In this document: positions 20,284 to 36,656 of the stretch, piece by piece
Position numbering within the stretch: the first letter of the stretch is position 1
Layout: each line of letters opens with the position of its first letter
Source of the DNA: a virus
DNA: 48,739 bases
Virus record (IMG/VR): IMGVR_UViG_3300029926_000006
Coordinates: 1-48,739 of that record
Reading direction: 5' to 3' (one strand)
Notes under the pieces: generated by a model
Databases searched by the model: none
What the model saw: only the letters and a program-made list of their open reading frames with translations
What the model was told of the DNA's origin: nothing
Translations under genes and position numbers: made by a program

Positions 20284-21202
20284 TGTCAAATTCCCCGGCT
20301 GCAAGTTTGTCTTTTATGGTATCCCAATGCTCATGCAATCCACCGAGCGCATTAGATACATCACTCTCTTCAGCCTCAACATCTTCCCAAATACTATGGT
20401 CAATGCAACTGCGAATTTCATCGGTGATTAAATCGGTCATCACATCTAAGTCCAAGGCGTCTAACTCCCAAGAACTGTGACCATGTTCTGCGATGTAATC
20501 TTGAGCGCGACTGTCTGTTAATTTAGTCGGGTTAGGTGGTGGATCATACTGGTCAATCTGGTCACGGTTTAATGCGATGCGACGGACTTCAATTTCACCG
20601 GGGCCAGCACGACTTAACAACTGAAGTCTGTCAGCATTGTCGCGGGTCATATCAATACCACTTGGGTCATGATCACCAAGGTGAATAAGAACACAGTCCT
20701 TACCTTCAGCAATCTTATCTTCAAAGCGTTGACCCGCACGCCATGCTTCCGATGCTGACAGATATCCTTTGCAACTCATGTGCGGTACAAGCCATGGTTC
20801 ACACGCTTTAGCGATGACGTTACCGAGTGCTTCTTTCTCGACCCACACTTCAACATAGTAGGATTGACGTTCCCACTGGTCAAAGCGTATGTAGTTTGGA
20901 AGGTTGGCAATTAAACCGTACTCATCTTCCCGCGTCCAGAACGTGTTGTGTTCCCGGTTGCGATCTTCAATAGCTTCCCATGACACCATGCCTGCAAGTC
21001 GTGCCTTGGTGATGAGCGTGCCTAAATTTTTATAACTGCGCTCAGTATTAGGAATGATGTCTCGCGCTACGAACTGGTAGTAAAGCTGACGCAGTGTGAG
21101 CGTGAATCCTTTGATGGAATACTCAGCGATTATAGCGTTAGCTGCATCAACAAGGTCCTGACTCTTTTGTGTGGGACTCCAATCTTTATAATGTATTTTC
21201 AT
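20276..21202 (-). CDS. Spo11/Topo VI-A-like TOPRIM protein (mini-A-like)
   Basis: 308 residues from the ATG at 21202 (ATGA overlap with the 50-residue gene upstream; a start five codons earlier is possible). The N-terminal segment has LTLRQLYYQFV (Y41/Y42), resembling the catalytic-Tyr CAP helix of Topo VI-A/Spo11, followed by SYKNLGTLITKARLAG. Then comes a TOPRIM domain: EVWVEKEALGNVI (E124 region), GYLSASEAW, and HLGDHDPSGID with the DxD acids at 177-179. Topo VI-A-like proteins without a B subunit ('mini-A') are known in mobile elements. No GHKL ATPase partner is visible here. It probably cleaves or senses DNA. Confidence 0.75.
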   Translation of the reverse strand: MKIHYKDWSPTQKSQDLVDAANAIIAEYSIKGFTLTLRQLYYQFVARDIIPNTERSYKNLGTLITKARLAGMVSWEAIEDRNREHNTFWTREDEYGLIANLPNYIRFDQWERQSYYVEVWVEKEALGNVIAKACEPWLVPHMSCKGYLSASEAWRAGQRFEDKIAEGKDCVLIHLGDHDPSGIDMTRDNADRLQLLSRAGPGEIEVRRIALNRDQIDQYDPPPNPTKLTDSRAQDYIAEHGHSSWELDALDLDVMTDLITDEIRSCIDHSIWEDVEAEESDVSNALGGLHEHWDTIKDKLAAGEFDNG

Positions 21203-21351
21203 GTCACCCGGTCCCATACATGATTCAAAATGTAAGACTCATTTTCTGACAGTGGACCAGTCAGGTTTTCCACAAACTTTAATTCCCAATCCGTCAGGTC
21301 ATGCTTACGGTTGATGCAGTCATCAATCATCACTTCATGTTCTTCGTTCAC
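21199..21351 (-). CDS. Small acidic protein with GTG start
   Basis: A 50-residue product beginning NEEHEVMIDDCINRKHDL after the GTG and ending YILNHVWDRVT. The GTG start lies one base beyond the polymerase stop, with AGGAG at good spacing inside the end of the polymerase gene. The TGA overlaps the ATG of the TOPRIM gene (ATGA), and this precise fit on both sides supports it as real. It is acidic and helical, with no known family; possibly a polymerase or TOPRIM accessory factor. Confidence 0.65.
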   Translation of the reverse strand: MNEEHEVMIDDCINRKHDLTDWELKFVENLTGPLSENESYILNHVWDRVT

Positions 21352-23862: not shown

Positions 23863-24089
23863 GAGTTGTATCCCCCAAGTTGTTCTGCATACCATTCAAA
23901 GGCAACGGTAATGAGATTATCAAAAGCAGCGTAGACACCACGCATCACGAACAGCACTGCGTACCATTCAACGATTGCCATTTCTGGATCATCATTCAGA
24001 TGGATATCAAACAGCATCACAATCACCAGCGGCGTCATGAAAAACATGGCGTAGAACAGTAAAATAAATGCGTGCTTTTGACTAATCAT
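23859..24089 (-). CDS. Small membrane protein
   Basis: 76 residues with a strong first transmembrane helix (about 7-27, AFILLFYAMFFMTPLVIVML) and a second moderately hydrophobic segment (EWYAVLFVMRGVYAAF). It has a good AGGAGAAGG ribosome-binding site. The start overlaps the 54-residue gene upstream (TAATG) and the stop overlaps the Tat-signal gene (ATGA). The gene pair (membrane protein plus exported protein) may form one functional unit. No family recognised. Confidence 0.75.
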   Translation of the reverse strand: MISQKHAFILLFYAMFFMTPLVIVMLFDIHLNDDPEMAIVEWYAVLFVMRGVYAAFDNLITVAFEWYAEQLGGYNS

Positions 24090-24253
24090 TACCTTCTCCT
24101 AGTGGTTATCAGTTTCACCCGGTTGGCTGCTTCAGGCATACCGTACCGCGTGATGTATAAGTACATGGTGGAAACTCCAACATTGAGAATGATGGACAAA
24201 TCTAACGTGTCCACACTCTCGCCGTTGTAGTCATACAGGACCGTGTTGGTCAT
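24089..24253 (-). CDS. Small putative helix-turn-helix protein
   Basis: 54 residues: MTNTVLYDYNGE, then a helix-turn-helix-like stretch TLDLSIILNVGVSTMYLYIT, then RYGMPEAANRVK and a basic end TTRRR. The pattern 'short beta start, helix, GVS turn, recognition-like helix, RxGM..EA' resembles the small HTH module found attached to phage HNH endonucleases. It overlaps the SSB-like stop and the next start by one base each (TAATG at both ends), which supports it as real. It is a candidate DNA-binding regulator. Confidence 0.6.
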   Translation of the reverse strand: MTNTVLYDYNGESVDTLDLSIILNVGVSTMYLYITRYGMPEAANRVKLITTRRR

Positions 24254-25208: not shown

Positions 25209-26567
25209 TTACATAAATGAGATAGGTGCGTCAGCAGCAGGTGCTTCAGCGGGTTGATTTTCTAATGCTTTCTGATTTGCAGCTAATGCTTCAGACGCAT
25301 CAATGGCTGCAACTCCCGATGCTATAGCAGCAAGATCGGGACCTTCAGTACCCTGCAACATTTGTTCAGCACTCGGTTGTTCTGGTATATAGACCGCTTT
25401 CAACGTGTCCTTGCCAGCAACGGTAGTGATTAACTTTTGCATGTTCTTTTTCTGAACTTCAGTTAATTTATCCAACTTCTCAGCACCAGATGGTGACAAC
25501 AAAGTGGCTGGGTAGTAGTCCGATTGAGTCAGCTTCATGGCCTTGAACTTCTTAACCATGACTTTCTCTTCTTCATTCCACACGCGGGTTGCTTTACCCG
25601 GTGCTAACGTGAAGCCGGGTACATCATGGCCCGTGGAAATTCGACGCACTGCTTCAGCGCGTGCATCTTTAAAGGCGTCTTTATATGCTTTCTCGACGGA
25701 CAAAATTTTAGCAAGGTCTACCGGGACCATCGACGGCAAGTGATTCATCACCTGTTCGATAATTCCCATGTGACCGATAATAGAATCAGTCATGTCATTC
25801 TCCTCAATTATTTGATTCTTACGAGCACTGCAATTTTTCTTATGTGAACAAAACTCATTGCAATGCTTTCCGGGGGTTAATGGCGCGTCAGGTGCGTCAG
25901 TTAATATGGCGGCTGCTGCTAATTTATCTGCTTCAGCTTGCAGGTCCACTATATTGATTAACTGGCTGCGCTGGGGCGTCTTGGTCTTGGGTTGAAAAAT
26001 AGTCATCATGCCGGTGTAGCAGGTAATCAGACCAAAGGTTTTGCCATGGAGATACGATATCAACTGCGTGTTGAATTTCTCACTGACATAGCGACGACCA
26101 TCTTTATAGTCAATCACTTCAACGAAGATGATGTCATCCTTAGAATCCTTGACAACGATGGTGATGTCACACGTTCCCCACCAGTCATCACGACCATAGG
26201 CTTCACCGGGATTAGATATCGTTTCAGCGGTAACTGTAACGGTACACGGATCATCTTCTTTATCGTACTGCATCCCAAGTTCATAGATGCGTTGCTCAAC
26301 ATAATCCAAACATGATTGAACACGATCAACACGGTCCTGTTGAATGAACCATCCCATAGGATTCTCTTCATCATCAACACCTATGGTTTGGCCCAAGTAT
26401 GCTTCAGCACGAACGCCATGGATCAGACACGCTTCAAGCAGCAAGTGGGAACCTGTACCATCAATCGCCGCTGGACTTGTAGTATCCGGGTAGGCCGCTT
26501 CTTCACGGATGCTGCCCGGACATTTAGGCCAGCGTTTATTTGATGGTCCTAGCCTTGCGTGGGCCAT
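25209..26567 (-). CDS. DUF2800 protein, Cas4/RecB-like nuclease
   Basis: 452 residues. It begins RLGPSNKRWPKCPGS and has the helix IDGTGSHLLLEACL. The nuclease core shows DDIIFVEVIDYKDGRRYV (a D..E.K-type PD-(D/E)xK site) followed by FNTQLISYLHG. A downstream Cys group, HCNEFCSHKKNC, resembles the cluster- or zinc-binding Cys set of Cas4/AddB-like nucleases. The C-terminal third is helical with an Ala-rich end. DUF2800 proteins typically lie next to DUF2815 SSB-like and polymerase genes in phages, as here. They probably process DNA ends in recombination. The start shares one base with the upstream stop. Confidence 0.88.
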   Translation of the reverse strand: MAHARLGPSNKRWPKCPGSIREEAAYPDTTSPAAIDGTGSHLLLEACLIHGVRAEAYLGQTIGVDDEENPMGWFIQQDRVDRVQSCLDYVEQRIYELGMQYDKEDDPCTVTVTAETISNPGEAYGRDDWWGTCDITIVVKDSKDDIIFVEVIDYKDGRRYVSEKFNTQLISYLHGKTFGLITCYTGMMTIFQPKTKTPQRSQLINIVDLQAEADKLAAAAILTDAPDAPLTPGKHCNEFCSHKKNCSARKNQIIEENDMTDSIIGHMGIIEQVMNHLPSMVPVDLAKILSVEKAYKDAFKDARAEAVRRISTGHDVPGFTLAPGKATRVWNEEEKVMVKKFKAMKLTQSDYYPATLLSPSGAEKLDKLTEVQKKNMQKLITTVAGKDTLKAVYIPEQPSAEQMLQGTEGPDLAAIASGVAAIDASEALAANQKALENQPAEAPAADAPISFM

Positions 26568-26974
26568 TACAATGCAGCCATTCTTTCATTGAAAGTAGCA
26601 AATTGTGCTTGCGGTAACGCTGCAAAACCATTGACACCAAACTCAGTCAGCAAGTTGCGCACTGCTGCACCGCTATCACCTAACCGGGTTGCGGCTGCTA
26701 TGGCTGCTGCGTTCAAAGTCTCAGCCGTGATGGTCGTGGCTGCTGGTGGTGTTGGTGCTACGGCTGCTGCTGCTACGGGTGCTGCTGCTGCAACTGCTGG
26801 TGCTGGCACGCTGGTCAACACGGGTGCCGCTGCAACTGGTGCCGCTGCTGCTACCACTGGTGTTTCAACCTGACCGACTGTTTCAACAGACAGACCTGCT
26901 ACCAACGCTGTTAATAAGGCCACCATTTGTTCATTAGTGGCTGCGATTTTTTCTAAATTTTGTTCAATTGACAT
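26567..26974 (-). CDS. Ala-rich replication-operon protein, function unknown
   Basis: 135 residues in three parts: a helix at 1-35 (SIEQNLEKIAATNEQMVALLTALVAGL), an Ala/Pro/Val linker at about 40-80, and a C-terminal helical domain (RNLLTEFGVNGFAALPQAQFATFNERMAAL). The C-terminal pattern 'fG..gla.Lp...fa.f...l' occurs in small proteins paired with DUF2815/DUF2800 genes in phages. The linker matches the SSB-like linker in composition, so the two may share an interaction strategy. GGAG precedes the start. Confidence 0.75.
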   Translation of the reverse strand: MSIEQNLEKIAATNEQMVALLTALVAGLSVETVGQVETPVVAAAAPVAAAPVLTSVPAPAVAAAAPVAAAAVAPTPPAATTITAETLNAAAIAAATRLGDSGAAVRNLLTEFGVNGFAALPQAQFATFNERMAAL

Positions 26975-27170
26975 CGTATAATTCTCCAGATGTTTTCATA
27001 GTTTTAAGTTGTTCAGCAGTCGGGGTAATTTTCAATCTACCTTCGCTGGCGGCAACCATCATTTCACGGAATAGGTCATTGTGATCCTTCCCGTAAATCT
27101 CTTTGGACTTCTCCTTGAAAGTTTCAAGTTCGTCCTCATCCACACGTATGTGAAATCGCATACTTCCCAT
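26964..27170 (-). CDS. Ribbon-helix-helix-like protein, candidate repressor
   Basis: 68 residues. An N-terminal strand SMRFHIRVDEDEL is followed by two helices (ETFKEKSKEIYG, then HNDLFREMMVAASEG), the layout of Arc/MetJ ribbon-helix-helix proteins, with a C-terminal helix PTAEQLKTMKTS. It has a strong AGGAGG site upstream and is the first gene after the operator cluster at 27198-27250. Such proteins bind palindromic DNA as dimers of dimers. It is therefore my first candidate for the regulator of the recurring CTGTCSGACACTGTC element, with autoregulation implied. This is an inference. Confidence 0.65.
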   Translation of the reverse strand: MGSMRFHIRVDEDELETFKEKSKEIYGKDHNDLFREMMVAASEGRLKITPTAEQLKTMKTSGELYDVN

Positions 27171-27197: not shown

Positions 27198-27250
27198 GAC
27201 AGTGTACCCTATCTGTCGGACACTGTGTTACTTAATTGTGACACTGTCAC
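27198..27250. promoter_or_regulatory. Operator cluster upstream of the RHH-like gene
   Basis: Three related elements lie within 53 bases: GACAGTGT (27198-27205), CTGTCGGACACTGTG (27213-27227, one mismatch to the phage-wide element), and the palindrome GTGACACTGTCAC (27238-27250). They lie in the 81-base gap between the leftward genes at 27252 and 27170. Their density next to a DNA-binding-protein gene suggests autoregulation. Confidence 0.75.
27222..27250 (-). promoter_or_regulatory. Possible leftward promoter overlapping operators
   Basis: On the minus strand GTGACA (27250-27245, 5 of 6 to TTGACA) is followed by a 17-base spacer and CACAGT (27227-27222, 3 of 6 to TATAAT). The arrangement copies the promoter at 30152-30180 but the -10 is weak. 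It would drive the genes from 27170 leftwards. Confidence 0.4.
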
Positions 27251-27251
27251 T

Positions 27252-27479
27252 CTACTTTTGAGTATCACTTCCAAACACTTCATCCTTATGGGTCAAGTGG
27301 TAAATCCTTGCAGCAAGGAATATCGCCATGGTTATGAACATCAACGTGCCACCAGCGAAAGCCCACCAATCAGATTCAAGCCAGTTCAAGTACATGATCC
27401 GCATCCCCAATACCGCTAATATCGCTAAGATTGGCACGTCGTCATGGGCCATTTTTATACCTGATTCTCTTTCAGTCAT
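27252..27479 (-). CDS. Small two-helix membrane protein
   Basis: 75 residues from the ATG at 27479; the upstream in-frame TTG is part of the GGAGAATAAA ribosome-binding site. After a polar start (MTERESGIKMAHDD) come two hydrophobic helices (VPILAILAVLGMRIMYL and WWAFAGGTLMFITMAIFLAARIY) and a charged tail. The likely site is the inner membrane with both ends on one side. No family recognised. It is the last gene before the operator cluster at 27.2 kb. Confidence 0.7.
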   Translation of the reverse strand: MTERESGIKMAHDDVPILAILAVLGMRIMYLNWLESDWWAFAGGTLMFITMAIFLAARIYHLTHKDEVFGSDTQK

Positions 27480-27494
27480 TTTATTCTCCAATCT

Positions 27495-27854
27495 CTACTT
27501 TTGAACAGGGTGGATTGGGGGATTGCCCATACTTAATGCAGCACGTGTTTCATAAAGCAATGTTTCCACCTTATCAAGTCGCTCGTTCATCACTTCAAGC
27601 TCATCCATCAAGGTTGCTACCTTTTTAGATGGCTGCTTGCCAGTGCTAGGACGACGCCATTTCAGTAGTTTATATTTCTTAGCATTGAGCATGGATGATT
27701 CGCTGATTGGGACCCCAACCTTTTCACTCAAGGTCTTACAGATATCTTCATTAGGTACACCGTTAAGAGCACCGTCAGCAGCCATCAATACCAACTCGTC
27801 ACAGACCTGACAATACTGGTTGTTTGTAATACGAAGTCGTATAATTTTATCCAT
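27495..27854 (-). CDS. Helical protein, function unknown
   Basis: 119 residues from the ATG at 27854 (TTGGAGAATATC upstream). The first half has a helical segment with a possible helix-turn-helix (EDICKTLSEKVGVPISESSMLNAKKY) followed by a basic stretch (LLKWRRPSTGKQPSKK). The second half is a coiled coil (ATLMDELEVMNERLDKVETLLYET) with a Pro-rich end. DNA binding followed by coiled-coil dimerisation is a reasonable guess. No family recognised. Confidence 0.65.
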   Translation of the reverse strand: MDKIIRLRITNNQYCQVCDELVLMAADGALNGVPNEDICKTLSEKVGVPISESSMLNAKKYKLLKWRRPSTGKQPSKKVATLMDELEVMNERLDKVETLLYETRAALSMGNPPIHPVQK

Positions 27855-27867
27855 GATATTCTCCAAT

Positions 27868-27999
27868 TTATAGTAAATAAGTTTTCACATCACCGTAGCT
27901 AAATAGCGTGATGATGTACTTGTGGTTGTTCTTGTAAACTTTATAGTGCTGCTTGGTGCTATCCCATACGGCATAGCAAGTACGGCCCCGGTGCATCAT
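27868..27999 (-). CDS. Tiny basic protein
   Basis: 43 residues (MMHRGRTCYAVWDSTKQHYKV and on), basic and aromatic-rich, ending VKTYLL. AAGGA lies nine bases before the first ATG. It starts just after the previous stop and ends 14 bases before the next start, so it fits the operon tightly. Beta-strand alternation in the middle suggests a small folded domain. Function unknown. Confidence 0.55.
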   Translation of the reverse strand: MMHRGRTCYAVWDSTKQHYKVYKNNHKYIITLFSYGDVKTYLL

Positions 28000-28001
28000 A
28001 A

Positions 28002-28184
28002 TTAGTCATCCTTGTTTAACGTGCAGCGGTCATAACACACACCTGTTCCAGATAAAAAATACACCGCACCAGTTAAATCAACCTTGACTGCTGCCAATAG
28101 ATGCTTTCTGAAAATACCGTTGCCTAGATAACACCGCTTGCCGATAGCCGGTGAAAATAAATAGGTTAAAAATTCATTGTTCAT
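28002..28184 (-). CDS. Small protein, function unknown
   Basis: 60 residues with Cys at about 18, 50 and 54 and a hydrophobic middle (HLLAAVKVDLTGAVYFLSG). The start overlaps the upstream stop (ATGA), indicating coupling. The Cys near the end (GVCYDRCTL) could bind metal. No known family. Confidence 0.6.
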   Translation of the reverse strand: MNNEFLTYLFSPAIGKRCYLGNGIFRKHLLAAVKVDLTGAVYFLSGTGVCYDRCTLNKDD

Positions 28185-28447
28185 TTCTCACTTTCCCTTA
28201 GTAAGTTTTTAACAACTTCAGTGTAGTCAGTGCCTTTGTAGTTGATAAATTTGATCTGGTTATAACCGTTAAATGTAATGGTCCAATCTGAATCAACACC
28301 TTCACCGAAAATCTCTTCAGACATATCACGAATAAATTGTTTGACCATGTTTACCTTCACGTCACTTACCGTTCTATGTTTAAAGTTTGCTGAAATGAAA
28401 CATTCCAACGGGTTGAATTTTAGAGTTCTAGTTATTGTGTATTTCAT
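28181..28447 (-). CDS. Small protein, function unknown
   Basis: 88 residues with an N-terminal strand (MKYTITRTLKF), a helix (VKVNMVKQFIRDMSEEIFG) and later strands (WTITFNGYNQIKFINYKG), so probably a small alpha/beta fold. It is coupled on both sides: TAATG with the gene upstream and ATGA with the gene downstream. No motif points to a function. Confidence 0.65.
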   Translation of the reverse strand: MKYTITRTLKFNPLECFISANFKHRTVSDVKVNMVKQFIRDMSEEIFGEGVDSDWTITFNGYNQIKFINYKGTDYTEVVKNLLRESEK

Positions 28448-28626
28448 TACTCACCACCTTTGAACACGTTTTCAAGGTGCTCAATTAAATACTTAGCATA
28501 GCCAACGACTAGCTCAACATCGTCAAACATGAATGTTTCATCACCACGCTCGACGCACTTTTTATACTCAACTTTCAACCGGGCCAATACAGCCGGGGTG
28601 AACTCAAGTGAAGATTGATTTGCCAT
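28447..28626 (-). CDS. Small helical protein, function unknown
   Basis: A 59-residue product (MANQSSLEFTPAVLARL at the start; ELVVGYAKYLIEHLENVF near the end). GAGG lies at proper spacing before the ATG, and the stop shares a base with the next start (TAATG). The acidic, helical character fits a small protein-binding factor. No family recognised. Confidence 0.65.
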   Translation of the reverse strand: MANQSSLEFTPAVLARLKVEYKKCVERGDETFMFDDVELVVGYAKYLIEHLENVFKGGE

Positions 28627-28629
28627 TAT

Positions 28630-28875
28630 TTATACCTCAGTAATTTTGACGTTTTGTGATACCAGACCGTAGCTGTCTTTCAGCTTCATGCCAGTCTCAC
28701 GACTGATGACCTGACACGCAGTGCCGTAGCCACCTACCCAGCCACCTGTATCAGCTTTTTTACAACCGATATATGAAGGTACGTTCTTCTTGACGCTGTA
28801 TACCTCAACGGTCACAACACGGTGTCCGTAACGGTTGGGCTTGCCATACTTTTCAGTGAATATAAAGTGTCTCAT
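28630..28875 (-). CDS. Small beta-rich protein, function unknown
   Basis: 81 residues: MRHFIFTEKYGKPNRYGHRVVTVEVYSVKKN, then SYIGCKKADTGGW, and a C-terminal part with KLKDSYGLVSQNVKITEV. It is basic and rich in Tyr/Val strands, with a Gly-rich centre (GGWVGGYGTA). It is the third gene of the leftward small-gene operon. Nothing indicates catalysis. Confidence 0.65.
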   Translation of the reverse strand: MRHFIFTEKYGKPNRYGHRVVTVEVYSVKKNVPSYIGCKKADTGGWVGGYGTACQVISRETGMKLKDSYGLVSQNVKITEV

Positions 28876-28887
28876 TTCAATCTCCTA

Positions 28888-29748
28888 TTAAAACCAGCGA
28901 CCTTCACAGATTGGGCCAATACCAGCCGCAATACTTTTTGGGTCAGTTAATAATCTACCGCAACACATACACGTGCCGGTGTCTCTACCGTATTCTTTTG
29001 CAGCTTCCAGTGGACTTGCAGCCAACTTGTCTAACGTGGCTTGTAGGTCCTCAGACGCGGTGCGCAATTTACGCAGTTCACCGTCAGCAGTAATTTTGCC
29101 TGCGTACTCGCCATGGTCCTTAATATAAAGGCAACCAACATTTTTACCTGTAGGCGGTGCGATGGATATCACAAGTGAACCGATATGCAGGCGGGGTTTT
29201 TTCAAACCACTCTCACGTGCAGTATCAAATAAGGCATTGATTTTTGTTAAGTCGATGATCGGTGCAGACTTCTTAACTTCAGCTTGCTTGGCGATGTGCT
29301 TGGTGTGCATTTTCTCAGCAGCAGCCAACTGGTTGTCAGTCAACGAACCATAATCAGATACACTGCGAAGCAATGACTCAGCAAACCCATTCCAACTGCA
29401 CACTTTCTTCAGAAAAATATGCAACTCTTCGTGGGCCTCAATCCATACAGCAGCTTTAGCTTCCAACTCAGACTGCTTTTTAACAGCAGCAGTGGCCTTG
29501 CGACCATCACGTGAGAGTTTAGCTTTGGCCCGGTCAGCAGCACTGGTCTTGAAATAGCCGCGACCATTACACACGAAGCAGTTAGCTTTGGGTTGGTGGA
29601 TACGAACGCCACCATAGATGCCAGTACCGCCACACTTAGTGCAGGGATACTTGACACCGTCTTTACAAATAGCTTTGGTGCTGGCAATCAACTGACCTTC
29701 CCAATCACCTTCTAAATCGTCGAACCCATTGAATGTATCGTCACTCAT
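28888..29748 (-). CDS. Zinc-binding protein with C-terminal DUF6011-like domain
   Basis: 286 residues. Near residues 36-64 there is a DnaJ-like double Cys motif (CTKCGGTGIYGG, then CFVCNGRGYF), a probable zinc site. The middle is a helical, basic region (RAKAKLSRDGRKATAAVKK). Residues about 170-240 look like a beta domain (LHIGSLVISIAPP, CLYIKDHGEYAGKI). The end carries GTCMCCGRLLTDPKSIAAGIGPIC, the DUF6011 zinc knuckle. DUF6011 is common in phage proteins that bind nucleic acid or partner with replication genes; its precise role is unknown. AGGAGAC precedes the start. Confidence 0.78.
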   Translation of the reverse strand: MSDDTFNGFDDLEGDWEGQLIASTKAICKDGVKYPCTKCGGTGIYGGVRIHQPKANCFVCNGRGYFKTSAADRAKAKLSRDGRKATAAVKKQSELEAKAAVWIEAHEELHIFLKKVCSWNGFAESLLRSVSDYGSLTDNQLAAAEKMHTKHIAKQAEVKKSAPIIDLTKINALFDTARESGLKKPRLHIGSLVISIAPPTGKNVGCLYIKDHGEYAGKITADGELRKLRTASEDLQATLDKLAASPLEAAKEYGRDTGTCMCCGRLLTDPKSIAAGIGPICEGRWF

Positions 29749-29759
29749 ATCAAGTCTCC

Positions 29760-30113
29760 TTAAAATTTACGTTTAGGGATTTTCATAACGATTTCTGACA
29801 CCTTCATTTCGCTGGCAGTATCAACAAGCTCACCACACGACTCTTCAAACTCTTGCATGGTATCGGCACCGCGAAAAACAAACTCCAAATTAATCTCGTC
29901 AGCATTAGGGTATGCAGTTCTGATGTAATCAATATGAGAGGCAAGGTTTGCTTTAGTCAGCGGTGACACTTCATGGTCAATGCCATCATTCAAGCGCGTG
30001 TTTTTGCGGTCATATATATAAAGCAATGCTTCACAGCGAATGAAGGGGTAAACCTTCTTAGCTTCAGCGTAACCTTCTTTGCGAAGTTCTTTCAGTTGTT
30101 GAAGTAATGTCAT
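29760..30113 (-). CDS. First gene of the leftward small-gene operon, unknown
   Basis: 117 residues, helical, with a charged N-terminus (LLQQLKELRKEGYAEAKKVYPF), a middle with LASHIDYIRTAYPNADEINLEFVFRG, and a basic end (VMKIPKRKF). GGAGATTGAA is the ribosome-binding site. It lies directly downstream of the TTGACA/CATAGT promoter with an internal operator, so it is expected to be an early gene under that control. No family recognised. Confidence 0.65.
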   Translation of the reverse strand: MTLLQQLKELRKEGYAEAKKVYPFIRCEALLYIYDRKNTRLNDGIDHEVSPLTKANLASHIDYIRTAYPNADEINLEFVFRGADTMQEFEESCGELVDTASEMKVSEIVMKIPKRKF

Positions 30114-30151
30114 TTCAATCTCCGGGGTGGTGGTTTAATTAACTTAATGAC

Positions 30152-30180
30152 ACTATGCGCCTCCTGTCCGACACTGTCAA
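30152..30180 (-). promoter_or_regulatory. Leftward promoter with operator in its spacer
   Basis: Minus strand: TTGACA at 30180-30175 is followed by a 17-base spacer and CATAGT (4 of 6) at 30157-30152. The predicted start is near 30145, about 32 bases before the first leftward gene. The spacer carries GTGTCGGACAG, so the operator would block polymerase directly. The perfect -35 plus operator repeats the design at 33115-33144. Confidence 0.65.
30164..30180. promoter_or_regulatory. Operator copy (exact 15-base element)
   Basis: CTGTCCGACACTGTC, an exact match to CTGTCSGACACTGTC, at 30164-30178, followed by AA that completes the minus-strand TTGACA. A weaker related half, GACACTAT, lies at 30149-30156. 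Confidence 0.75.
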
Positions 30181-30198
30181 CTTTATCCGTTATTTACT

Positions 30199-30244
30199 TT
30201 AACGCTGTCGGACAGTTGACACACTTCTATAGCGGTAGTAGGGT
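30199..30244 (+). promoter_or_regulatory. Rightward control region for the primase-helicase gene
   Basis: TTTAACGCTGTCGGACAGT (30199-30217) shares TTAACGCTGTC and GACA with the site at 36.6 kb. It runs directly into a perfect TTGACA (30216-30221). A 17-base spacer leads to TAGGGT (30239-30244), a weak -10 (3 of 6). The predicted transcript starts near 30251 and would give a roughly 100-base leader before the gene. The operator is certain as a repeat; the promoter is plausible. Confidence 0.5.
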
Positions 30245-30355
30245 TGTTGCTTGCTTTGGCTAGGTGATGAATAGCTGTCATCACTGAACGCTTCTTTCCG
30301 GGGAAGCTGCCACGGCCCCACTTACCGGGTGATATCGACGGAGGATATTATTAAA

Positions 30356-32821
30356 ATGCATCCAATAATAAGAATTAATAACGACGAATTTCTACGCGGG
30401 ATTTTCCGCGAAAATTATCTAACCACCCATGTCAACAGCTTTGCTTTTGATCCAAATAATATTCCCAATGACATGCGTGGTATTGCATGGGCTGGTGGCT
30501 ATTATGAGAACACGCCGCTACGACCGGGAGAGAATCAATTTTTCTGCGTATCGCAGTTCATGATTGACTTCACCACGGGTCGAGCAGTCAGGCGTAAGGC
30601 CAACTTCCTTGCTACCTATCTAATCGTCGCTGATGACGTGGAAGAGAAGCTACCACTTGAGCAGGTCCAACGCTTGCCCAAGCCGAGCTACATACTCAGG
30701 ACATCCAACTACTCATATCAATGGGGCTGGATTCTGGAAGTCCCGGAAACGAACATGGACCGGGTCAACAACTTACTGGACCAACTGATTGCGAATGGTT
30801 TAGCACCTGACGGTACAGATCCGGGCATGAAAGGTGTCACCCGGTTGATACGCACACCTGATGGCTTCAACACCAAGGTCAAACGAATTGAAGAGAACGG
30901 TGGCGCGGCGCCACAGTGTGAAGTCACGCAGTGGAACCCGGAACTACGCTACACCATGGAACAGTTAGCCGAGCCCTTCAATGTTGAGCTCGACGCACCA
31001 CGGTCTGACGGTCGAGTTGACGGTGCAGCCGATGTGCCTGACCACCCGGTGCTGCAACATCTAGCTATCAAATCCACCTTGAGTGCAGGCCGATACGACA
31101 TCACCTGTCCATGGGTCGATACGCATACTGATAAAGACGACAGCGGTTCAGCCGTATTCACTAATGAAGATGGGACCGTTGGCTTCCAATGTCACCATGG
31201 TCACTGCCAAGAAAAGACAGCGGGTGACGTGCTCAACTTCCTGAACGTGACGGTCCCCGGCTTCTCGACGGTGTATTCAAACTGGAAGATGAACCGGGCT
31301 TTAGACACGTTGCCTGATATCCCAACGGCACCGCCATCAATGCAAGTACCGATACTCAGCTTCATGGGGGTGGCCCCGGTAAAGGAGGATGATAGCGGCA
31401 TGGACGCGGCGATAGTAAAGCTGTCTCACATGGTCCCCGGTGATGAGCAGCGGGTATTCGCTGAAACATTACTGCACACCATCAATGGTCTGAGCAATGA
31501 AATGTTGAAGATCACTTACAATGAAGATGTGCGACTCTCAATGGACTGGACCAAGTCTGAACTGACTAAAATTATCAAGGCCCTGCATCGCAGTCACGCG
31601 GTAGCGCATGGGGCCAACGATACAATGTGGCTACTCGACAACATCGTGCTGATGACTGAAGGTGCGGGTGGCTTCTATAATATCCATCGCAACGTATTCC
31701 AGTCCGCGTTCTCACTCACTGCAACCTACGGTCACATGGTGCTAGGTGATGAGACACCCGCCAGCGTGATAGCCAACAATCCCAACAAGCGAACAGCGGA
31801 CCGTATAGGGTGGCACCCGACAGCGGAACAGACCTTCGACTACGATGGTCGGACCTACCTGAATACCTACTCACCACCACGCATGATACCAATCCCCGGT
31901 GACGTCAGTCAGTGGCTACAACTCATGGACTTCCTATATAAAGAGCACGCACATCTACTCATTCAACACATGGCATTTACTTTGCAACGGCCCGACGTGA
32001 AAATTCGCTGGCAACCGTTGATTGGTGGTATCCCACGTAGCGGCAAGACAATGAGCATTAAACCATTGATAAAGATATTAGCCGGTAGTGCAGCCATGGT
32101 CAGTAATGATGACTTTGAAGCAGGATGGGGTGATGTCTTTAGTGAGAAGAAAGCGATTGCCTTTGAAGAAGTATGGCAACCAGATAAGCGGCAGTTCAAC
32201 AGGCTTAAAACGAAGTTGGCTAATGATGACATTGAAACGCTGAACATTAAGGGCCAAGGCTTGAAAACGCAGCGCAATCTATACAGTATCTATATGTTCA
32301 CCAACCATCTTGATGCGCTTCAGTTTGATGATAATGAAGATAAGCTGCTGGTCATACGGTGCAATGAGCGCATGAGTGTGGAGTTCTACCGTGAGCTTGG
32401 CAACAAGATAGACTTTGATGCGAATTACATTGCCCACATCTATCATTACCTGCTGAATGTGGATCTCAGTACCTTTGATCATGGACGTTTGCCAGTGCGT
32501 ACACAGGCCATGTATGACATGGTAAAAGAGAGTCGTCCTGAGTATGAAACTTTAGCACTGGAATGGCTTGAAGATGAAGTGTTTAATCCAGCCTGTTTTC
32601 GCATGGCAGATATGATGTCAAAACTACGAGATTGTACGACAGTCAGAAGCATGAAAAAGGTGGGGCAAATGTTGCATCGGGAAGGTTATATTTCTCATAA
32701 GGCCCAAAGAAAGGGCCATCCGGTAGTCAGGTTCTGGTCAAATGATGCTGCCTGCATTGATATGAAGCCGGTTGATTTGCACACTTACTACCACAAGATG
32801 CTCACAGCATCAATCCCATAA
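30356..32821 (+). CDS. Bifunctional primase-helicase (D5-like SF3)
   Basis: 821 residues from the ATG at 30356, chosen over an upstream GTG because GGAGG lies between them. The N-terminal 240 residues have the RepB/primase-type pattern (SYILRTSNYSYQWGWIL, then GVTRLIRTPDGFNTK). A zinc-binding segment follows (CPWVDTH from C251, and FQCHHGHC with C279, H283 and C284). The C-terminal half has SF3-type ATPase motifs: GGIPRSGKT (557-565), AIAFEEVWQPDKRQF (Walker B-like) and YMFTNHLDALQF (sensor). Phage proteins of this form prime and unwind at the origin. The candidate origin lies directly downstream. Confidence 0.9.
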   Translation: MHPIIRINNDEFLRGIFRENYLTTHVNSFAFDPNNIPNDMRGIAWAGGYYENTPLRPGENQFFCVSQFMIDFTTGRAVRRKANFLATYLIVADDVEEKLPLEQVQRLPKPSYILRTSNYSYQWGWILEVPETNMDRVNNLLDQLIANGLAPDGTDPGMKGVTRLIRTPDGFNTKVKRIEENGGAAPQCEVTQWNPELRYTMEQLAEPFNVELDAPRSDGRVDGAADVPDHPVLQHLAIKSTLSAGRYDITCPWVDTHTDKDDSGSAVFTNEDGTVGFQCHHGHCQEKTAGDVLNFLNVTVPGFSTVYSNWKMNRALDTLPDIPTAPPSMQVPILSFMGVAPVKEDDSGMDAAIVKLSHMVPGDEQRVFAETLLHTINGLSNEMLKITYNEDVRLSMDWTKSELTKIIKALHRSHAVAHGANDTMWLLDNIVLMTEGAGGFYNIHRNVFQSAFSLTATYGHMVLGDETPASVIANNPNKRTADRIGWHPTAEQTFDYDGRTYLNTYSPPRMIPIPGDVSQWLQLMDFLYKEHAHLLIQHMAFTLQRPDVKIRWQPLIGGIPRSGKTMSIKPLIKILAGSAAMVSNDDFEAGWGDVFSEKKAIAFEEVWQPDKRQFNRLKTKLANDDIETLNIKGQGLKTQRNLYSIYMFTNHLDALQFDDNEDKLLVIRCNERMSVEFYRELGNKIDFDANYIAHIYHYLLNVDLSTFDHGRLPVRTQAMYDMVKESRPEYETLALEWLEDEVFNPACFRMADMMSKLRDCTTVRSMKKVGQMLHREGYISHKAQRKGHPVVRFWSNDAACIDMKPVDLHTYYHKMLTASIP

Positions 32822-32830
32822 GCGTTAATG

Positions 32831-32861
32831 CTACTCTCAACACCAGTCGTGCTGGGAGTAG
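32831..32861 (+). other. Strong stem-loop after the primase-helicase gene
   Basis: A 13-base stem with one mismatch and one G-T pair (CTACTCTCAACAC with GTGCTGGGAGTAG) and a 5-base loop (CAGTC), starting 10 bases after the stop codon. No U-run follows, so it is not a standard intrinsic terminator. It may protect or end the primase transcript, or serve as an origin structure. Confidence 0.6.
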
Positions 32862-32891
32862 TAATGCTGTGAGCGTTGATACCCACTTCAG

Positions 32892-33105
32892 TGACTACTT
32901 TTGCTATCTGACTACCTTTACTGACTACCTAAAAACTCTAATGAAAACAATAGTATATATATACTTTTAATAAAGGTAGTCAGGTAGTCACTACTACTAA
33001 TACTTATACTTAACACTGTTATAAACGTTAATGTAAATTCTCAACGATTTACGTTTTCATCCTCTTACGGTATTAGTAGTCACAAACTACTGACTACCGA
33101 CTACC
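32892..33105. other. Candidate replication origin: GACTAC(C)-type iterons around an AT-rich core
   Basis: Eight copies of a GACTAC(C)-type element lie in this 366-base gene-free gap. Direct copies start at 32892, 32909 and 32922 (TGACTAC, TGACTACC, TGACTACC). Inverted copies GGTAGTCA are back to back at 32975-32982 and 32983-32990. GTAGTCA is at 33076, and direct copies are at 33091 and 33099. Between the first two groups is an AT-rich stretch with TAGTATATATATAC. Iterons, an AT-rich unwinding element and an adjacent primase-helicase gene are the usual parts of a replication origin. The repeat pattern is seen directly; the origin function is inferred. Confidence 0.65.
33030..33055. other. Second stem-loop in the origin region
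   Basis: AATGTAAAT pairs with ATTTACGTT (one G-T pair) around an 8-base loop (TCTCAACG). It lies between the inverted iterons at 32975-32990 and the cluster at 33076-33105. Confidence 0.5.
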
Positions 33106-33114
33106 TTTGATTTG

Positions 33115-33144
33115 TTGACACTGTCGGACACTGTCTGCTAGTAT
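33115..33144 (+). promoter_or_regulatory. Rightward promoter with full operator in its spacer
   Basis: TTGACA (33115-33120), an 18-base spacer made of CTGTCGGACACTGTC (33121-33135) plus TGC, then TAGTAT (33139-33144, 4 of 6). The operator fills the space between -35 and -10, the classic position for tight repression. The predicted start is near 33151, followed by the ribosome-binding site GGAG and ATG at 33188. Confidence 0.7.
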
Positions 33145-33187
33145 CTTGGATGGGGCAATGTTGCCCGGTGTAAATGGAGTTTGAAAC

Positions 33188-33322
33188 ATGAGTAAATTCG
33201 ACCATAAGAAAGTGCCTGAAGGAATGTTCTTTTGCCAAGGGTGTAGACAGCAACGACCTGTCGGTGATCGCACTGGTAAATACGGTAAGTCATGCAGCAA
33301 GTGCAACGGTGAATCATCATGA
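33188..33322 (+). CDS. Tiny zinc-finger protein, first gene of the rightward early operon
   Basis: 44 residues with two Cys pairs, CQGC (17-20) and CSKC (36-39), split by a basic linker with QQRPVGDRTGKYGKS: a classic single zinc-ribbon layout. GGAG lies 8 bases before the ATG, and the stop overlaps the next gene (ATGA). It lies immediately downstream of the operator-controlled promoter. Such mini zinc ribbons in phages often bind nucleic acid or host transcription proteins; the target here is unknown. Confidence 0.75.
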   Translation: MSKFDHKKVPEGMFFCQGCRQQRPVGDRTGKYGKSCSKCNGESS

Positions 33323-33537
33323 GATTATCCATCGGTTTAGCAGTGGTTTTTCTTACCGGGATGTTTTTCAGCATCATGGCGTGGTATTTGGATTTGCCCA
33401 CGGTTGGACTTAATGACCGGCACGAATGTCAATGGGTGGAAGAAGCACCTGCGTTTGAACGACGTGACTGCCCAAAGGAATTACCAGACAGCTATCATCC
33501 AGTGTATGTGCACTATGATGACAGCAAAGGGGAATAA
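33319..33537 (+). CDS. Small membrane-anchored protein
   Basis: 72 residues. An N-terminal signal-anchor helix (about 3-24, LSIGLAVVFLTGMFFSIMAWYL) is followed by an acidic, probably periplasmic domain with two Cys (HECQWVEE and RRDCPKEL) that could form a disulphide. The start is coupled by ATGA to the zinc-ribbon gene. An early membrane protein of this size may influence superinfection or host membrane state; no family recognised. Confidence 0.65.
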   Translation: MRLSIGLAVVFLTGMFFSIMAWYLDLPTVGLNDRHECQWVEEAPAFERRDCPKELPDSYHPVYVHYDDSKGE

Positions 33538-33539
33538 TC

Positions 33540-33671
33540 ATGCAAGACTTACTGCACGCTATCTTGGAAGAATTGAAGCGGAACAATGAATTATTACAGC
33601 AGATGCTTGAGCAGCGGGATAAGGACCTTGACCTAGCTGATGAGCTTGAACGGGAGTTGAAGCGTGATTGA
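33540..33671 (+). CDS. Tiny coiled-coil protein
   Basis: 43 residues, nearly all one heptad-patterned helix (LLHAILEELKRNNELLQQML and on), highly charged. The start follows the previous stop by two bases; the stop overlaps the next GTG start by 8 bases. It could be an oligomerisation or decoy peptide. Function unknown. Confidence 0.6.
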   Translation: MQDLLHAILEELKRNNELLQQMLEQRDKDLDLADELERELKRD

Positions 33672-33855
33672 CATTTTGTTGGAGATAGCGACTGAGCGTA
33701 AATATGCCAAGGCCAGTATGGTAGCGGCACCACGTTGTTCGTCTTATGACGATGAGTGTGTGGACGTTACATCACCATCAAAATGCTGGATTGGTGATAA
33801 CAAGACAGGACCGGCTGATGGCTACTGTCCATTGATGGGGCGAAGCAATGACTGA
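33664..33855 (+). CDS. Small Cys-containing protein with GTG start
   Basis: 63 residues. The GTG at 33664 has GGGAG seven bases before it and lies in an 8-base overlap (GTGATTGA) with the upstream stop. The C-terminal two thirds carries four Cys (about residues 25, 32, 41 and 54), which may bind zinc or form disulphides. Its stop overlaps the next start by 8 bases (ATGACTGA). No family recognised. Confidence 0.6.
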   Translation: MIDILLEIATERKYAKASMVAAPRCSSYDDECVDVTSPSKCWIGDNKTGPADGYCPLMGRSND

Positions 33856-34015
33856 ATCACCGTGTTGTGAGGCACCGTTTGTATCGTTCAGATCGTTGAA
33901 CATGAAGATGTGCGCTGACTGTTTACAAGAATTTCCATGGGACCTGAAGAAAGGTCAGAACCCATTGCTTACAGGCAGCAGAGATAATTCAAAATTTGGA
34001 GAACATAATGACTAG
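33848..34015 (+). CDS. Tiny protein with CC and CADC motifs
   Basis: 55 residues (start MTESPCCEAPFVSF, then MCADCLQEFPWDLKKGQ). Four Cys in two pairs suggest a small zinc site. Overlaps of 8 bases with both neighbours (ATGACTGA at its start, ATGACTAG at its end) support it as a coupled gene. No family recognised. Confidence 0.6.
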   Translation: MTESPCCEAPFVSFRSLNMKMCADCLQEFPWDLKKGQNPLLTGSRDNSKFGEHND

Positions 34016-34727
34016 ATGGACAATTAGTAATGGCGATAGACCAGTCAGTGACCACACGTTGATTAAAGTGGAATTTGATAATGGGACCTTCAAGACTGAC
34101 GAGTGCTACAAATTTGAGTGGCGTAAAATCATGCCGTCAGGTGGCAACATAGCGCGGTGGCAATTAGCTAAAGAGGAAGTCATTGACAGCGGCGTCCTAC
34201 ACACTGTTGGGATTGTTGGTAAGCATCAATGGAATAAGGCGAAAGGTGTACCACCTAACGCGCACCACCTGCGAGTTGATGTAGAGTTTGAAGATGGTCA
34301 CACCATAGAAAACACCCATATTTCAGATGTCAACTGGTACAAGGAAAGTTTGAACGCAGTGGTCAAGTGGCGATATTGTCAGACACCACCCAAGCACACT
34401 GTTGAGTTTGAAGAAGAAGCGGCTAGTGTGAGTGAAGATACATGGGAGTCCTTAATCGTGCCTATACTGACCCAAGTCGGTAAACAGGACCGTTACATGA
34501 TTGGTGATGATAAAGACAAGATTGATATGTGGGCTGAACAACATCCCCATGATATCTTCAGGAAAATCATGTTTGCCATGATTGACAAGTATGAGTGCAG
34601 GCTGGGTAGAAAGGATGACATAGTCAATGAGACTGCTAAAATGCTAGACTACATGAACCGCTGGCACAATTATGAATTGATATGGGCGAAAGAAGATGCT
34701 GAACAGCAGACAACGACGACGGCTTGA
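34008..34727 (+). CDS. Early-operon protein, function unknown
   Basis: 239 residues from the ATG at 34008 (GGAG upstream; 8-base overlap with the previous gene). The N-terminal half is beta-rich (HTLIKVEFDNGTF, LRVDVEFEDGHTI). The C-terminal part (about 165-225) is helical with KYECRLGRKDDIVNETAKMLDYMNRW, which loosely resembles the helical signature of DUF3310-type phage proteins; the match is weak. It ends with a Thr-rich tail. It lies just before the terminase genes. Confidence 0.7.
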   Translation: MTRWTISNGDRPVSDHTLIKVEFDNGTFKTDECYKFEWRKIMPSGGNIARWQLAKEEVIDSGVLHTVGIVGKHQWNKAKGVPPNAHHLRVDVEFEDGHTIENTHISDVNWYKESLNAVVKWRYCQTPPKHTVEFEEEAASVSEDTWESLIVPILTQVGKQDRYMIGDDKDKIDMWAEQHPHDIFRKIMFAMIDKYECRLGRKDDIVNETAKMLDYMNRWHNYELIWAKEDAEQQTTTTA

Positions 34728-34836
34728 AGCCGAGTTGCACAATGCCAACATTGAGGCTGACAAGAAGCAGCGTTCAAAGTGGGCCATACGTGCACTTCGT
34801 GAAGAGTTTAACAAAGGACGAGAAGGGACGATATGA
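34696..34836 (+). CDS. Tiny basic protein upstream of TerS
   Basis: 46 residues, strongly basic (MLNSRQRRRLEAELHNANIE and so on). It overlaps the end of the previous gene by 32 bases in another frame, and its stop overlaps the TerS start (ATGA). The ribosome-binding site is poor (GAAAGAAG). The exact junction with TerS favours it as a coupled gene, but it could be a chance frame. Confidence 0.45.
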   Translation: MLNSRQRRRLEAELHNANIEADKKQRSKWAIRALREEFNKGREGTI

Positions 34837-35279
34837 GTGACTTAGACTTCATGGGTACTGTTGATGAACTGCTATTGCCGATGGTGGGCAAGCAGGCCCC
34901 ATTTGTCGAAGAATATCTTATTGACTTCAACGGAACACGTGCTGCAATCGCCGCTGGATACAGTGAAAAGACTGCAACATCAATGGCTTCGGAGAACCTT
35001 AGAAAACCACACATCATTGCTGCGATAACGGCTAAGTTGGAAGAATCAGCCATACGCAATGAAGTAACGATTGACAGCTTGACGAAGGATTTGCGTAGTG
35101 CTGTGAGGATTGGGAAGCAGGAAGGTCAGGCGTCAGGCGTCACTGGTGCGGTGATGGCGATGGCTAAGATCCATGGTTTTGCCAACGACAAATCGACAAT
35201 CATCCATAAAGGCGATGTGAATCTGCACCACACAATAGAATTTGTGACGCCTAGTGGCCCACCTACAAATACCGAGTAA
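34833..35279 (+). CDS. Terminase small subunit (Terminase_2 type)
   Basis: 148 residues. The N-terminal helix-turn-helix segment KQAPFVEEYLIDFNGTRAAI, followed by AAGYSEKTATSMASENLRKP, is the Terminase_2 signature. A helical oligomerisation region follows (EVTIDSLTKDLRSAVRIGK). It recognises the packaging site and activates the large subunit. It directly precedes TerL and overlaps it by 26 bases. The GAAGGGACGAT upstream is an adequate ribosome-binding site. Confidence 0.92.
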   Translation: MSDLDFMGTVDELLLPMVGKQAPFVEEYLIDFNGTRAAIAAGYSEKTATSMASENLRKPHIIAAITAKLEESAIRNEVTIDSLTKDLRSAVRIGKQEGQASGVTGAVMAMAKIHGFANDKSTIIHKGDVNLHHTIEFVTPSGPPTNTE

Positions 35280-36582
35280 GCTGAAGCCCCTGTTCGCCGC
35301 CATACGCTACAAAATCATGTATGGGGGCCGAGGGGGTGGTAAGTCTCATTCAGTGGCCCAAGCACTGCTTATAACCGGCACAACCAAGCCAATGCGTATA
35401 CTTTGTGCACGTGAAGTTCAGAAGTCCATCAAGCAATCGGTCCACCAGCTACTATGTGATTACATCGTCAAGCTGGAACTGACCAACTTTTATGAAATCT
35501 TAGACAATGAAATACGTGGGGCCAACGGCACAACCTTCAACTTTGCTGGCCTTGCAGGTAGCACTGTAGACAGTATCAAGTCGTTTGAAGGTGCTGATGT
35601 CTGCTGGGTGGAAGAAGGTCAGACTGTCACCAAGCGAAGCTGGGACGTCCTGATACCCACCATTCGCGCACCGGGCAGTGAAATATGGGTGACGTTCAAT
35701 CCCCACACTGACCTTGATAACACTTACGTTCGCTTCGTGCTGCAACCACCACCAGACAGCGTGGTGATTAAGATCAACTACCCGGATAACCCATGGTTCA
35801 GTGCAGAGCTTGAAGCGGAACGGCTGCACTGTTTAGCGACAGATCCAGACAACTACGCTAATATTTGGGAAGGTGAATGTCTGAGTGCCAGCGAAATGCA
35901 ATTTATAACTACTGATTCAGTCCGTGAGTCCATGTCACGTCAAGCACGTTATCTTGGTGATGATCCACTGATTTGCGGTATCGACTTGGCCCGTGGTGGT
36001 AATGATGACTGCTTCATCACCTTCAGACGCGGTAAGGATGCACGCAGCGAGAAAATCTACAAGATACCCGGCAAGAAATCACGTGACTCAATGGTAGTCG
36101 TATCGTTGGTGACTAAAATATTGCAGGACCACCAGCCTGACCAAGTCAATGTAGATGAAGGAAGCATGGGTGGTCCTATCGTTGATAGATTGAACCAGCT
36201 TGGTTGGAACGTCATGGGTGTCAGCTTTGGCAGTCGAGCTACCGATGACAAGCATTACAGCAACAAGGTCGCTGAAATGTGGGATAGGATGCGCGTATGG
36301 ATTGTCAACGGTGGTGCATTGCCTAACAATCCACGCTTGCTGACAGAATTAACATGCCGTGAGTTCAGCCACGATAATAAAGACAGACTGGTACTTGAGA
36401 GCAAGAAAGCGATGAAGTCAGGTCCAGATCCTAAGCCATCACCTGATTGGGCTGACTCAATCTGTCTGACGTTTGCCATTGATGTAGCACCGATTGAGCG
36501 TAAGGACCGTGATGATATTCATGGTATGCGTTTGCGCAGCACGCATGACGTTGACCCACTGGACGCAATGACCTTCAATTAA
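35254..36582 (+). CDS. Terminase large subunit
   Basis: 442 residues. The ATPase domain has Walker A GGRGGGKS (24-31), Walker B DVCWVEEGQ, and the coupling motif VTFNPH. The C-terminal nuclease domain has CGIDLARGGND, then VNVDEGSMGG and DSICLTFAID, supplying the RNase H-like acids. The family is Terminase_3-like. The start is a GTG (35254) inside the end of TerS; LQIPSKLKPLFA next to it matches the usual TerL beginning. The stop lies within the operator site at 36580. Confidence 0.95.
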   Translation: MAHLQIPSKLKPLFAAIRYKIMYGGRGGGKSHSVAQALLITGTTKPMRILCAREVQKSIKQSVHQLLCDYIVKLELTNFYEILDNEIRGANGTTFNFAGLAGSTVDSIKSFEGADVCWVEEGQTVTKRSWDVLIPTIRAPGSEIWVTFNPHTDLDNTYVRFVLQPPPDSVVIKINYPDNPWFSAELEAERLHCLATDPDNYANIWEGECLSASEMQFITTDSVRESMSRQARYLGDDPLICGIDLARGGNDDCFITFRRGKDARSEKIYKIPGKKSRDSMVVVSLVTKILQDHQPDQVNVDEGSMGGPIVDRLNQLGWNVMGVSFGSRATDDKHYSNKVAEMWDRMRVWIVNGGALPNNPRLLTELTCREFSHDNKDRLVLESKKAMKSGPDPKPSPDWADSICLTFAIDVAPIERKDRDDIHGMRLRSTHDVDPLDAMTFN

Positions 36583-36604
36583 CGCTGTCCGACACTGTCC
36601 GACA
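36580..36604. promoter_or_regulatory. Double operator at the end of TerL
   Basis: TAACGCTGTCCGACACTGTCCGACA overlaps the TerL stop codon. It contains the exact element CTGTCCGACACTGTC (36585-36599) continued by CGACA, so it has one and a half units. It lies 24 bases upstream of the next -35 box. Confidence 0.75.
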
Positions 36605-36627: not shown

Positions 36628-36656
36628 TTGGACAAGCCAAAACAATAAGTTATACT
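36628..36656 (+). promoter_or_regulatory. Promoter for the head and portal genes
   Basis: TTGGAC (3 of 6 to TTGACA), a 17-base spacer, then TATACT (5 of 6 to TATAAT). The predicted start is near 36663, just before AGGAG at 36671-36675 and the ATG at 36684. The short leader is consistent with a real promoter; the operator upstream suggests the same regulator acts here. Confidence 0.6.

Follow-up and report, generated by a model that had tools for sequence, protein, structure and literature searches.

Small ribbon-helix-helix (RHH) proteins such as Arc, SvtR and F55 are already known as viral regulators. Arc and Mnt belong to phage P22, and the strand residues of Arc are QFNLRW; RHH antitoxins such as DinJ and AtaR regulate their own synthesis. 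Here we describe a repeated 15-base element and a 68-residue RHH-like protein (26964-27170, minus strand; profile match and structure model), its proposed binder and autorepressor, in the virus record IMGVR_UViG_3300029926_000006 (48,739 nucleotides; this whole stretch is termed the window). The reading that we favour, with a probability of about two-thirds judged from the sequences, is that the sites are operators at which this protein would repress, besides its own gene, other phage promoters that the host RNA polymerase uses. The best explanation of the site pattern is that the putative targets are mainly replication genes and, in this phage, the terminase unit as well.

Like Arc, the window protein is small, phage-encoded and has alternating outward strand residues (RFHIRV). 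It differs in that no sequence-level match with Arc was found in PDB profile and family searches, in that one operator spans the control regions of replication, terminase and head genes, and in its half-site. The RHH system described here occurs in phages with no visible lysogeny gene: genes for integration or plasmid maintenance were not seen among the window proteins scanned, some open reading frames (ORFs) lying outside the scan. The antitoxins differ in that no toxin-like gene stands beside the window RHH gene, which is followed by an Ala/Pro-rich protein (26567-26974, minus strand) and then by a DUF2800 exonuclease. Two systems of archaeal viruses are described in PMC5569661: SvtR of SIRV1 is an RHH protein that represses its own promoter and that of a structural gene and may spread along DNA, and F55 of SSV1 binds tandem sites in several early promoters and in its own. 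According to the same source, SvtR works with an archaeal transcription machinery and another consensus (homology to the window protein was sought through PDB searches), and F55 maintains lysogeny and reads direct repeats of a different sequence. These regulators are a precedent for autorepression and for the holding back of a structural gene.

The first-pass annotation had reported the 15-base element at four control regions, a fifth related site at 30205, and TTAACG common to the sites at 30199 and 36579. All of these were found again, CTGTCSGACACTGTC being exact at 30164, 33121 and 36585 and one mismatch away at 27213; the repeat is confirmed, is stronger than had been claimed, and belongs to a conserved system. 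The element is built of TGTC and GACA half-sites that alternate with single-base spacers, and two kinds of dyad, TGT-n3-ACA and ACA-n1-TGT, succeed each other in it every five bases. TGTCnGACA occurs eight times in the 48,739 bases against 0.74 expected, and all six copies with C or G in the middle lie in the four regions (27214, 30165, 30206, 33122, 36586 and 36596), as do five of the six copies of GACAnTGTC. TGTCSGACASTGTC has five matches on the two strands together, and its reversed control has none. By our own gene list the noncoding DNA of the window amounts to 2,013 bases (4.1%); it holds seven of the 23 copies of TGTnnnACA (0.9 expected) and eight of the 18 copies of ACAnTGT (0.7 expected), and only two of these 15 noncoding dyads (25112 and 33013) are outside the four elements. 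In a census of perfect palindromes TGTC-n1-GACA reached 8 against a shuffle maximum of 5, with other palindromes standing out too. A loose scan with CTGTCSGACACTGTC (up to three mismatches) gave 10 matches against 2.19 expected, which on its own is only moderate evidence because one of 100 shuffles also reached 10.

The dyads are spaced on the helix. ACA-n-TGT centres with at most one mismatch lie at 27202, 27223 and 27244 (21 and 21 bp apart), at 30153, 30174 and 30205 (21 and 31 bp), at 33121 and 33131 (10 bp), and at 36585 and 36595 (10 bp); spacings of 10, 21 and 31 bp correspond to one, two and three helical turns. One extra one-mismatch centre, at 27225, is out of phase. The phasing recurs in relatives: upstream of the L035 RHH gene, ACA-n-TGT sites are separated by 42 and 30 bp, in L008 a degenerate site and an exact one lie 21 bp apart, and three weak matches (three to four mismatches) to the Vibrio form of the site are 31 and 31 bp apart in Vibrio phage 1.185.O.

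Relatives were taken as the best 80 of 551 contigs matched by the window polymerase, and searches of annotated phages led to four cultured Vibrio phages (MZH0603, 1.185.O, 1.021.A and PS25B.1), which carry homologues of the window's RHH, primase, polymerase and tail proteins. The RHH profile matched in 46 of 85 sequences, window included, and each matching gene is oriented as the polymerase. The 46 RHH regions formed 19 clusters, and removal of the window's cluster left 18 independent promoters. In the 190 bp before the RHH start of these 18, all 704 palindromes of the form XYZ, gap of 0-10, complement were counted. TGT-n3-ACA ranked first (11 against 1.01 expected, Poisson P 1.1e-8) and ACA-n1-TGT second (10 against 1.2 expected, Poisson P 5.9e-7), each present in eight of the 18 regions; neither count was reached in any of 400 dinucleotide shuffles, a comparison in which CCC-n1-GGG had a higher z-score than either dyad, on 4 counts, and at least one of the two dyads was present in 10 of the 18 promoters. 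A second set was drawn by RHH protein searches (37 loci used; L109, L117, L120 and L124 were removed as already seen, and L129, L130, L132, L134, L135 and L137 were likewise left unused). Six of its clusters were independent of those in the first set; in them the dyads ranked 1 and 5 among the 704 palindromes, and five of the six promoters had at least one dyad.

The two palindromes most enriched before the RHH genes of relatives are the two dyads of the window's own element, which links the protein to the site; the conserved pairing of protein and operator is well supported by these statistics, as far as sequence comparison reaches. Operators stand before the putative regulator's own gene, as an array at 27198-27251 in the window and as the enrichment in relatives. 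The RHH-like protein, one of two binders suggested beforehand, is the likeliest on sequence grounds because the RHH promoters of relatives carry the same two dyads, and no other regulator type is found among the window proteins whose homologues occur in many of the 80 polymerase loci. The other suggestion, an HTH-like protein at 24089-24253, had no match naming a helix-turn-helix (HTH) in PHROGs, Pfam or NCBIfam, and was dropped for want of a homologue (E 1e-4) in the 80 loci. Conservation in relatives, which the first-pass annotation had set as a test, is seen in diverged form, with TGT and ACA kept and the intervening bases drifting.

The wider distribution of the site was followed with TGTnnnACAnTGTnnnACA (12 fixed bases). 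In the 84 relatives, near-identical contigs counted, it had 10 exact and 48 one-mismatch places, and 31 of these 58 were intergenic in DNA that is only 5.5% intergenic; the reversed control had no exact and six one-mismatch places, two of them intergenic. The intergenic labels come from a crude ORF picker that called some RHH promoters coding (e.g. L008 2718). Some positions recurred: in 16 of the 84 relatives a place was no more than 40 bp past the polymerase match, in four no more than 23 bp past the helicase match and in seven close to the end of the exonuclease, and others stood ahead of the RHH gene. The distinct 19-mers numbered 39, two of them from the window. The second-set pattern counts, which leave out also L118 and L121, cover 35 further loci, and here TGTnnnACAnTGTnnnACA had seven exact and 33 one-mismatch places, stood 42-197 bp upstream of the RHH start at 14 of the 35 loci, and lay 1.8-2.4 kb after it, near the exonuclease end, at 13 of the 40 places (own count). 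Among all 64 patterns of the same form, TGT gave these 40 places and the next best 9. Three control patterns gave 1, 0 and 1 places (up to one mismatch); GTTnnnCAAnGTTnnnCAA and TTGnnnAACnTTGnnnAAC gave 14 and 15, of which 11 and 7 overlap operator sites, and the remaining 3 and 8 include several of the GTGTAACTTTGTCAAAC type, some examples of which sit before the RHH gene. The window form of the 19-base pattern had no match in viral_contigs. In the Vibrio phages, where the site's form was first spotted by eye in intergenic DNA, the RHH gene heads a unit toward exonuclease and polymerase, and the primase lies on the other side and is read away, with one extra gene between the two in two of the four phages. 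No TGT/ACA dyad stood out in the palindrome census of these four phages, and a loose scan with the Vibrio form (up to four mismatches, both strands; own count in L086 and L089) was mixed: 36 lines against 38-56 in controls for L086, and 108 against 44-84, mostly coding, for L089.

The first-pass annotation had proposed a single repressor regulon over replication, early and head genes. One operator at several control regions stands, and its replication part is shared with relatives. L140, whose portal protein is 61% identical to that of the window, has an exact chain some 1.2 kb upstream of its small terminase match, and this chain resembles the window site at 33115. No chain follows TerL in L140, L141 or L142, the three relatives holding that region. 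By this pattern the replication genes are the shared part of the regulon, the terminase site is paralleled once, and the site at the head genes has to date been seen only in the window.

Operators overlap target promoters, both among the 39 distinct sites and at two promoters of the window. At 18 of the 39 sites the centre falls within the spacer of a promoter matching at least 9 of 12 positions, compared with 66 of 1,160 noncoding control positions; in L006, L022 and L086 the -35 is outside the site, at the polymerase gene end. In the window, each of the sites at 30164, 30205 and 33121 overlaps a TTGACA or lies next to one, and the overlap is clear at 30180-30152 and 33115-33144, where the promoter scan recovered both of the arrangements of operator, TTGACA and -10-like box that had been pointed out earlier. 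The same scan over the whole window found 26 promoters against 28.0 in shuffles, i.e. no excess. These overlaps bear on a reading in which the sites function in DNA replication, segregation or packaging (as iterons, a ParG-like centromere or a packaging site) and their position at promoters is incidental. Proximity to primase, polymerase and TerL would suit such a role, as would weak ParG matches of the protein; we regard it as very improbable, given that the sites overlap promoter hexamers and are spread over several transcription starts and that no ParA was seen among the proteins scanned.

Several observations weigh against repression by the RHH-like protein at these sites. Eight of the 18 first-set promoters hold neither exact dyad; the expected counts in that test were derived from whole contigs; the AT-rich AAA-n1-TTT ranked third (10 against 1.49), which probably reflects base composition. 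In the five loci examined the exonuclease-end site is in frame with conserved VAQSS/VAQSD codons and may be kept for the protein sequence. The spacer test is partly circular, as a TTGACA can borrow the site's ACA, and both window sites included in it score below 9 of 12. A matrix from 24 distinct relative sites placed 27214 (14.7) and 36586 (12.1) first and second in the window, and these scores are weak, within the shuffle range (13.8 average top, 22.5 at most).

Family and fold searches with the protein also count against this reading. The RHH-like protein had no Pfam or NCBIfam match and only 0.049 and 0.098 in PHROGs, and the family had no match to a Pfam, PHROG or NCBIfam model at trusted level; the best values of its 23 members against curated models were HicB 0.0032, NikA-like 0.0047, RHH_10 0.0098, Arc-like PHROG 0.027 and RHH_1 0.12. 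PDB profile matches were weak (E 0.29-0.5), and Foldseek gave nothing better than E 4. A second look at structural rows gave Z values of 5.9 and 4.5 for DinJ (5.9 over model residues 1-50), 4.5 for AtaR (residues 3-45), 4.3 for Arc (45 residues, rmsd 3.2) and 3.5 for the Rv0300/Rv0301 complex, the antitoxins forming the top rows; since Z below 8 can reflect a common arrangement, these rows fit an RHH fold without proving it. The model itself has a mean pLDDT (predicted local distance difference test) of 86.7 and a pTM (predicted template modelling score) of 0.62, with an extended start and helices at 12-26, 30-42 and 52-61; the block that holds the first two helices has pLDDT 82-96, and no strand was assigned, as expected for a monomer model. 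An alignment of 23 members shows R35 and E36 in every sequence and R9 in at least 90%. Used alone as pattern queries, the window RHH protein gave five stretches and no relative, and the window primase matched no pattern.

Two further observations against the RHH-like protein would suit another reader of a real operator, either a host protein or a different phage protein, with the RHH gene as one target among several: Vibrio phage MZH0603 also holds an annotated Cro/C1-type HTH protein, and a single one-mismatch site is present in each of two part-genomes in which no RHH gene is convincing (best E 0.0049). We consider this unlikely, as the dyads rank at the top of the palindromes upstream of RHH genes in both sets, Vibrio species are the hosts of the named relatives and other polymerase relatives come from many hosts, and no other regulator-type window protein has homologues in many loci.

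If the RHH-like protein is the repressor, the control regions of the window may be read as follows. The array before its gene has its three centres in the form ACA-S-TGT and includes TGTCGGACA at 27214-27222, and the promoter scan listed none within 27198-27251. A unit of small genes (27252-30113) separates the RHH gene from the primase, and the operator of this leftward early unit (30150-30178; centres 30153, with one mismatch, and 30174) is overlapped by a promoter-like TTGACA-17-CATAGT (30152-30180, minus strand, 10/12). The operator TTAACGCTGTCGGACAGTTGACAC (30199-30223) precedes the gene for a primase-type protein of 830 residues (30329-32821, plus strand), a proposed target; no good -10 was found with its TTGACA in the promoter scan. 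TTGACACTGTCGGACACTGTC (33115-33135; centres 33121 and 33131) overlaps the -35 and fills the spacer of a promoter-like TTGACA-18-TAGTAT (33115-33144, plus strand, 10/12), and the proposed target unit contains small genes and the small and large terminase (33319-36582, plus strand). Directly after the TerL stop, the operator at 36579-36604 holds the full chain TGTCCGACACTGTCCGACA (36586-36604), and a promoter-like TGGACA-16-TATACT (36629-36656, plus strand, 10/12) follows it before the head genes.

The site at 36585 ends about 25 bp upstream of the -35 of this head-gene promoter and therefore need not repress. The RHH-like protein might then be a dual regulator that represses where its site is within a promoter and activates the head-gene promoter from upstream; the position of the full chain suits this, and the RHH protein AmrZ is reported as both activator and repressor (abstract of PMC3325190). 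We think it improbable, with no site found after TerL in the three relatives and with repression that spreads along DNA, as described for SvtR (PMC5569661), explaining an upstream site too.

Under the favoured reading, repression by the RHH-like protein, one dimer would occupy each dyad of TGT/ACA half-sites, and neighbouring dimers 10, 21 or 31 bp apart would lie on the same helix face and bind cooperatively; RNA polymerase would be kept out wherever a site covers part of the -35 or occupies the spacer. Soon after infection the promoters would be open, and with accumulation of the protein the replication genes and its own gene would be damped and the terminase unit held back. An extension, quite unlikely in our estimate, is a replication-coupled timer of virulent phages, in which the autorepressed protein would keep terminase and head promoters shut until a rising number of operator-bearing genomes titrates it and so opens the late genes; if true, this would be a repressor regulon without lysogeny, its protein and operator conserved throughout a broad set of phages with replication genes in common. 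If the RHH-like protein is a repressor, a small family without a name in Pfam, PHROGs and NCBIfam, whose genes adjoin those for polymerase, exonuclease and primase in many viral contigs, would gain a probable function and a target on DNA. For the cultured Vibrio phages this reading predicts the promoters under control and the protein that controls them, and it raises the question why phages without visible lysogeny genes retain a repressor-like circuit over several promoters. No publication naming this operator or protein was found in titles and abstract openings, a search that covers subscription literature thinly and leaves novelty unproven. A pattern scan of genome_contigs, which requires close peptide matches, found one weak RHH relative, in a Fusibacter genome; this near-absence fits phages that do not reside in chromosomes and is no proof of it.

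A test of whether the 180 bp upstream of the RHH gene have more words in common with the remainder of the contig than other stretches have was tried and rejected as non-discriminating (window rank 258 of 810; best in proportion L026, 38 of 171), as expected for a site that is a degenerate dyad.

The window has the look of a complete phage genome, with bases 1-99 copied exactly at 48641-48739; this 99-bp terminal repeat marks a complete circular assembly. Its virion genes include T7-like ones for a head-tail adaptor (phrog_332), a tail protein (phrog_376) and an internal virion protein (phrog_418), together with a Gp13-like Pfam match; the replication genes encode the DUF2800 exonuclease, an Enc34-type single-stranded-DNA-binding protein, a DNA polymerase, an SNF2-type helicase and the primase-type protein. 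TerL (35254-36582, plus strand) matches Pseudomonas phages such as LKA5 and H66 at about 56%, over residues 4-240 only, and its C-terminal part may have a different history. A 313-residue protein (20276-21217, minus strand) matches phrog_6247, 'DNA topoisomerase', at 3.4e-104 and had no Pfam or NCBIfam match at the limits used. The early unit also encodes a Dam-type adenine methyltransferase (PF05869; 19232-19828, minus strand), annotated likewise in 1.185.O and 1.021.A.

ORF 1377-3110 of the window holds repeats of 66-bp period at 2052-2587, and the MZH0603 (L086) gene in the position of the Ala/Pro-rich protein has a run of 6-bp AGCT-containing repeats at about 9120-9210. The 'CRISPR spacers' annotated in Vibrio phage 1.185.O (L087) at 28101-28318 sit within a coding sequence (27853-28686) and have a 54-bp period of CACCGGTG; they are probably a repetitive coding tract.

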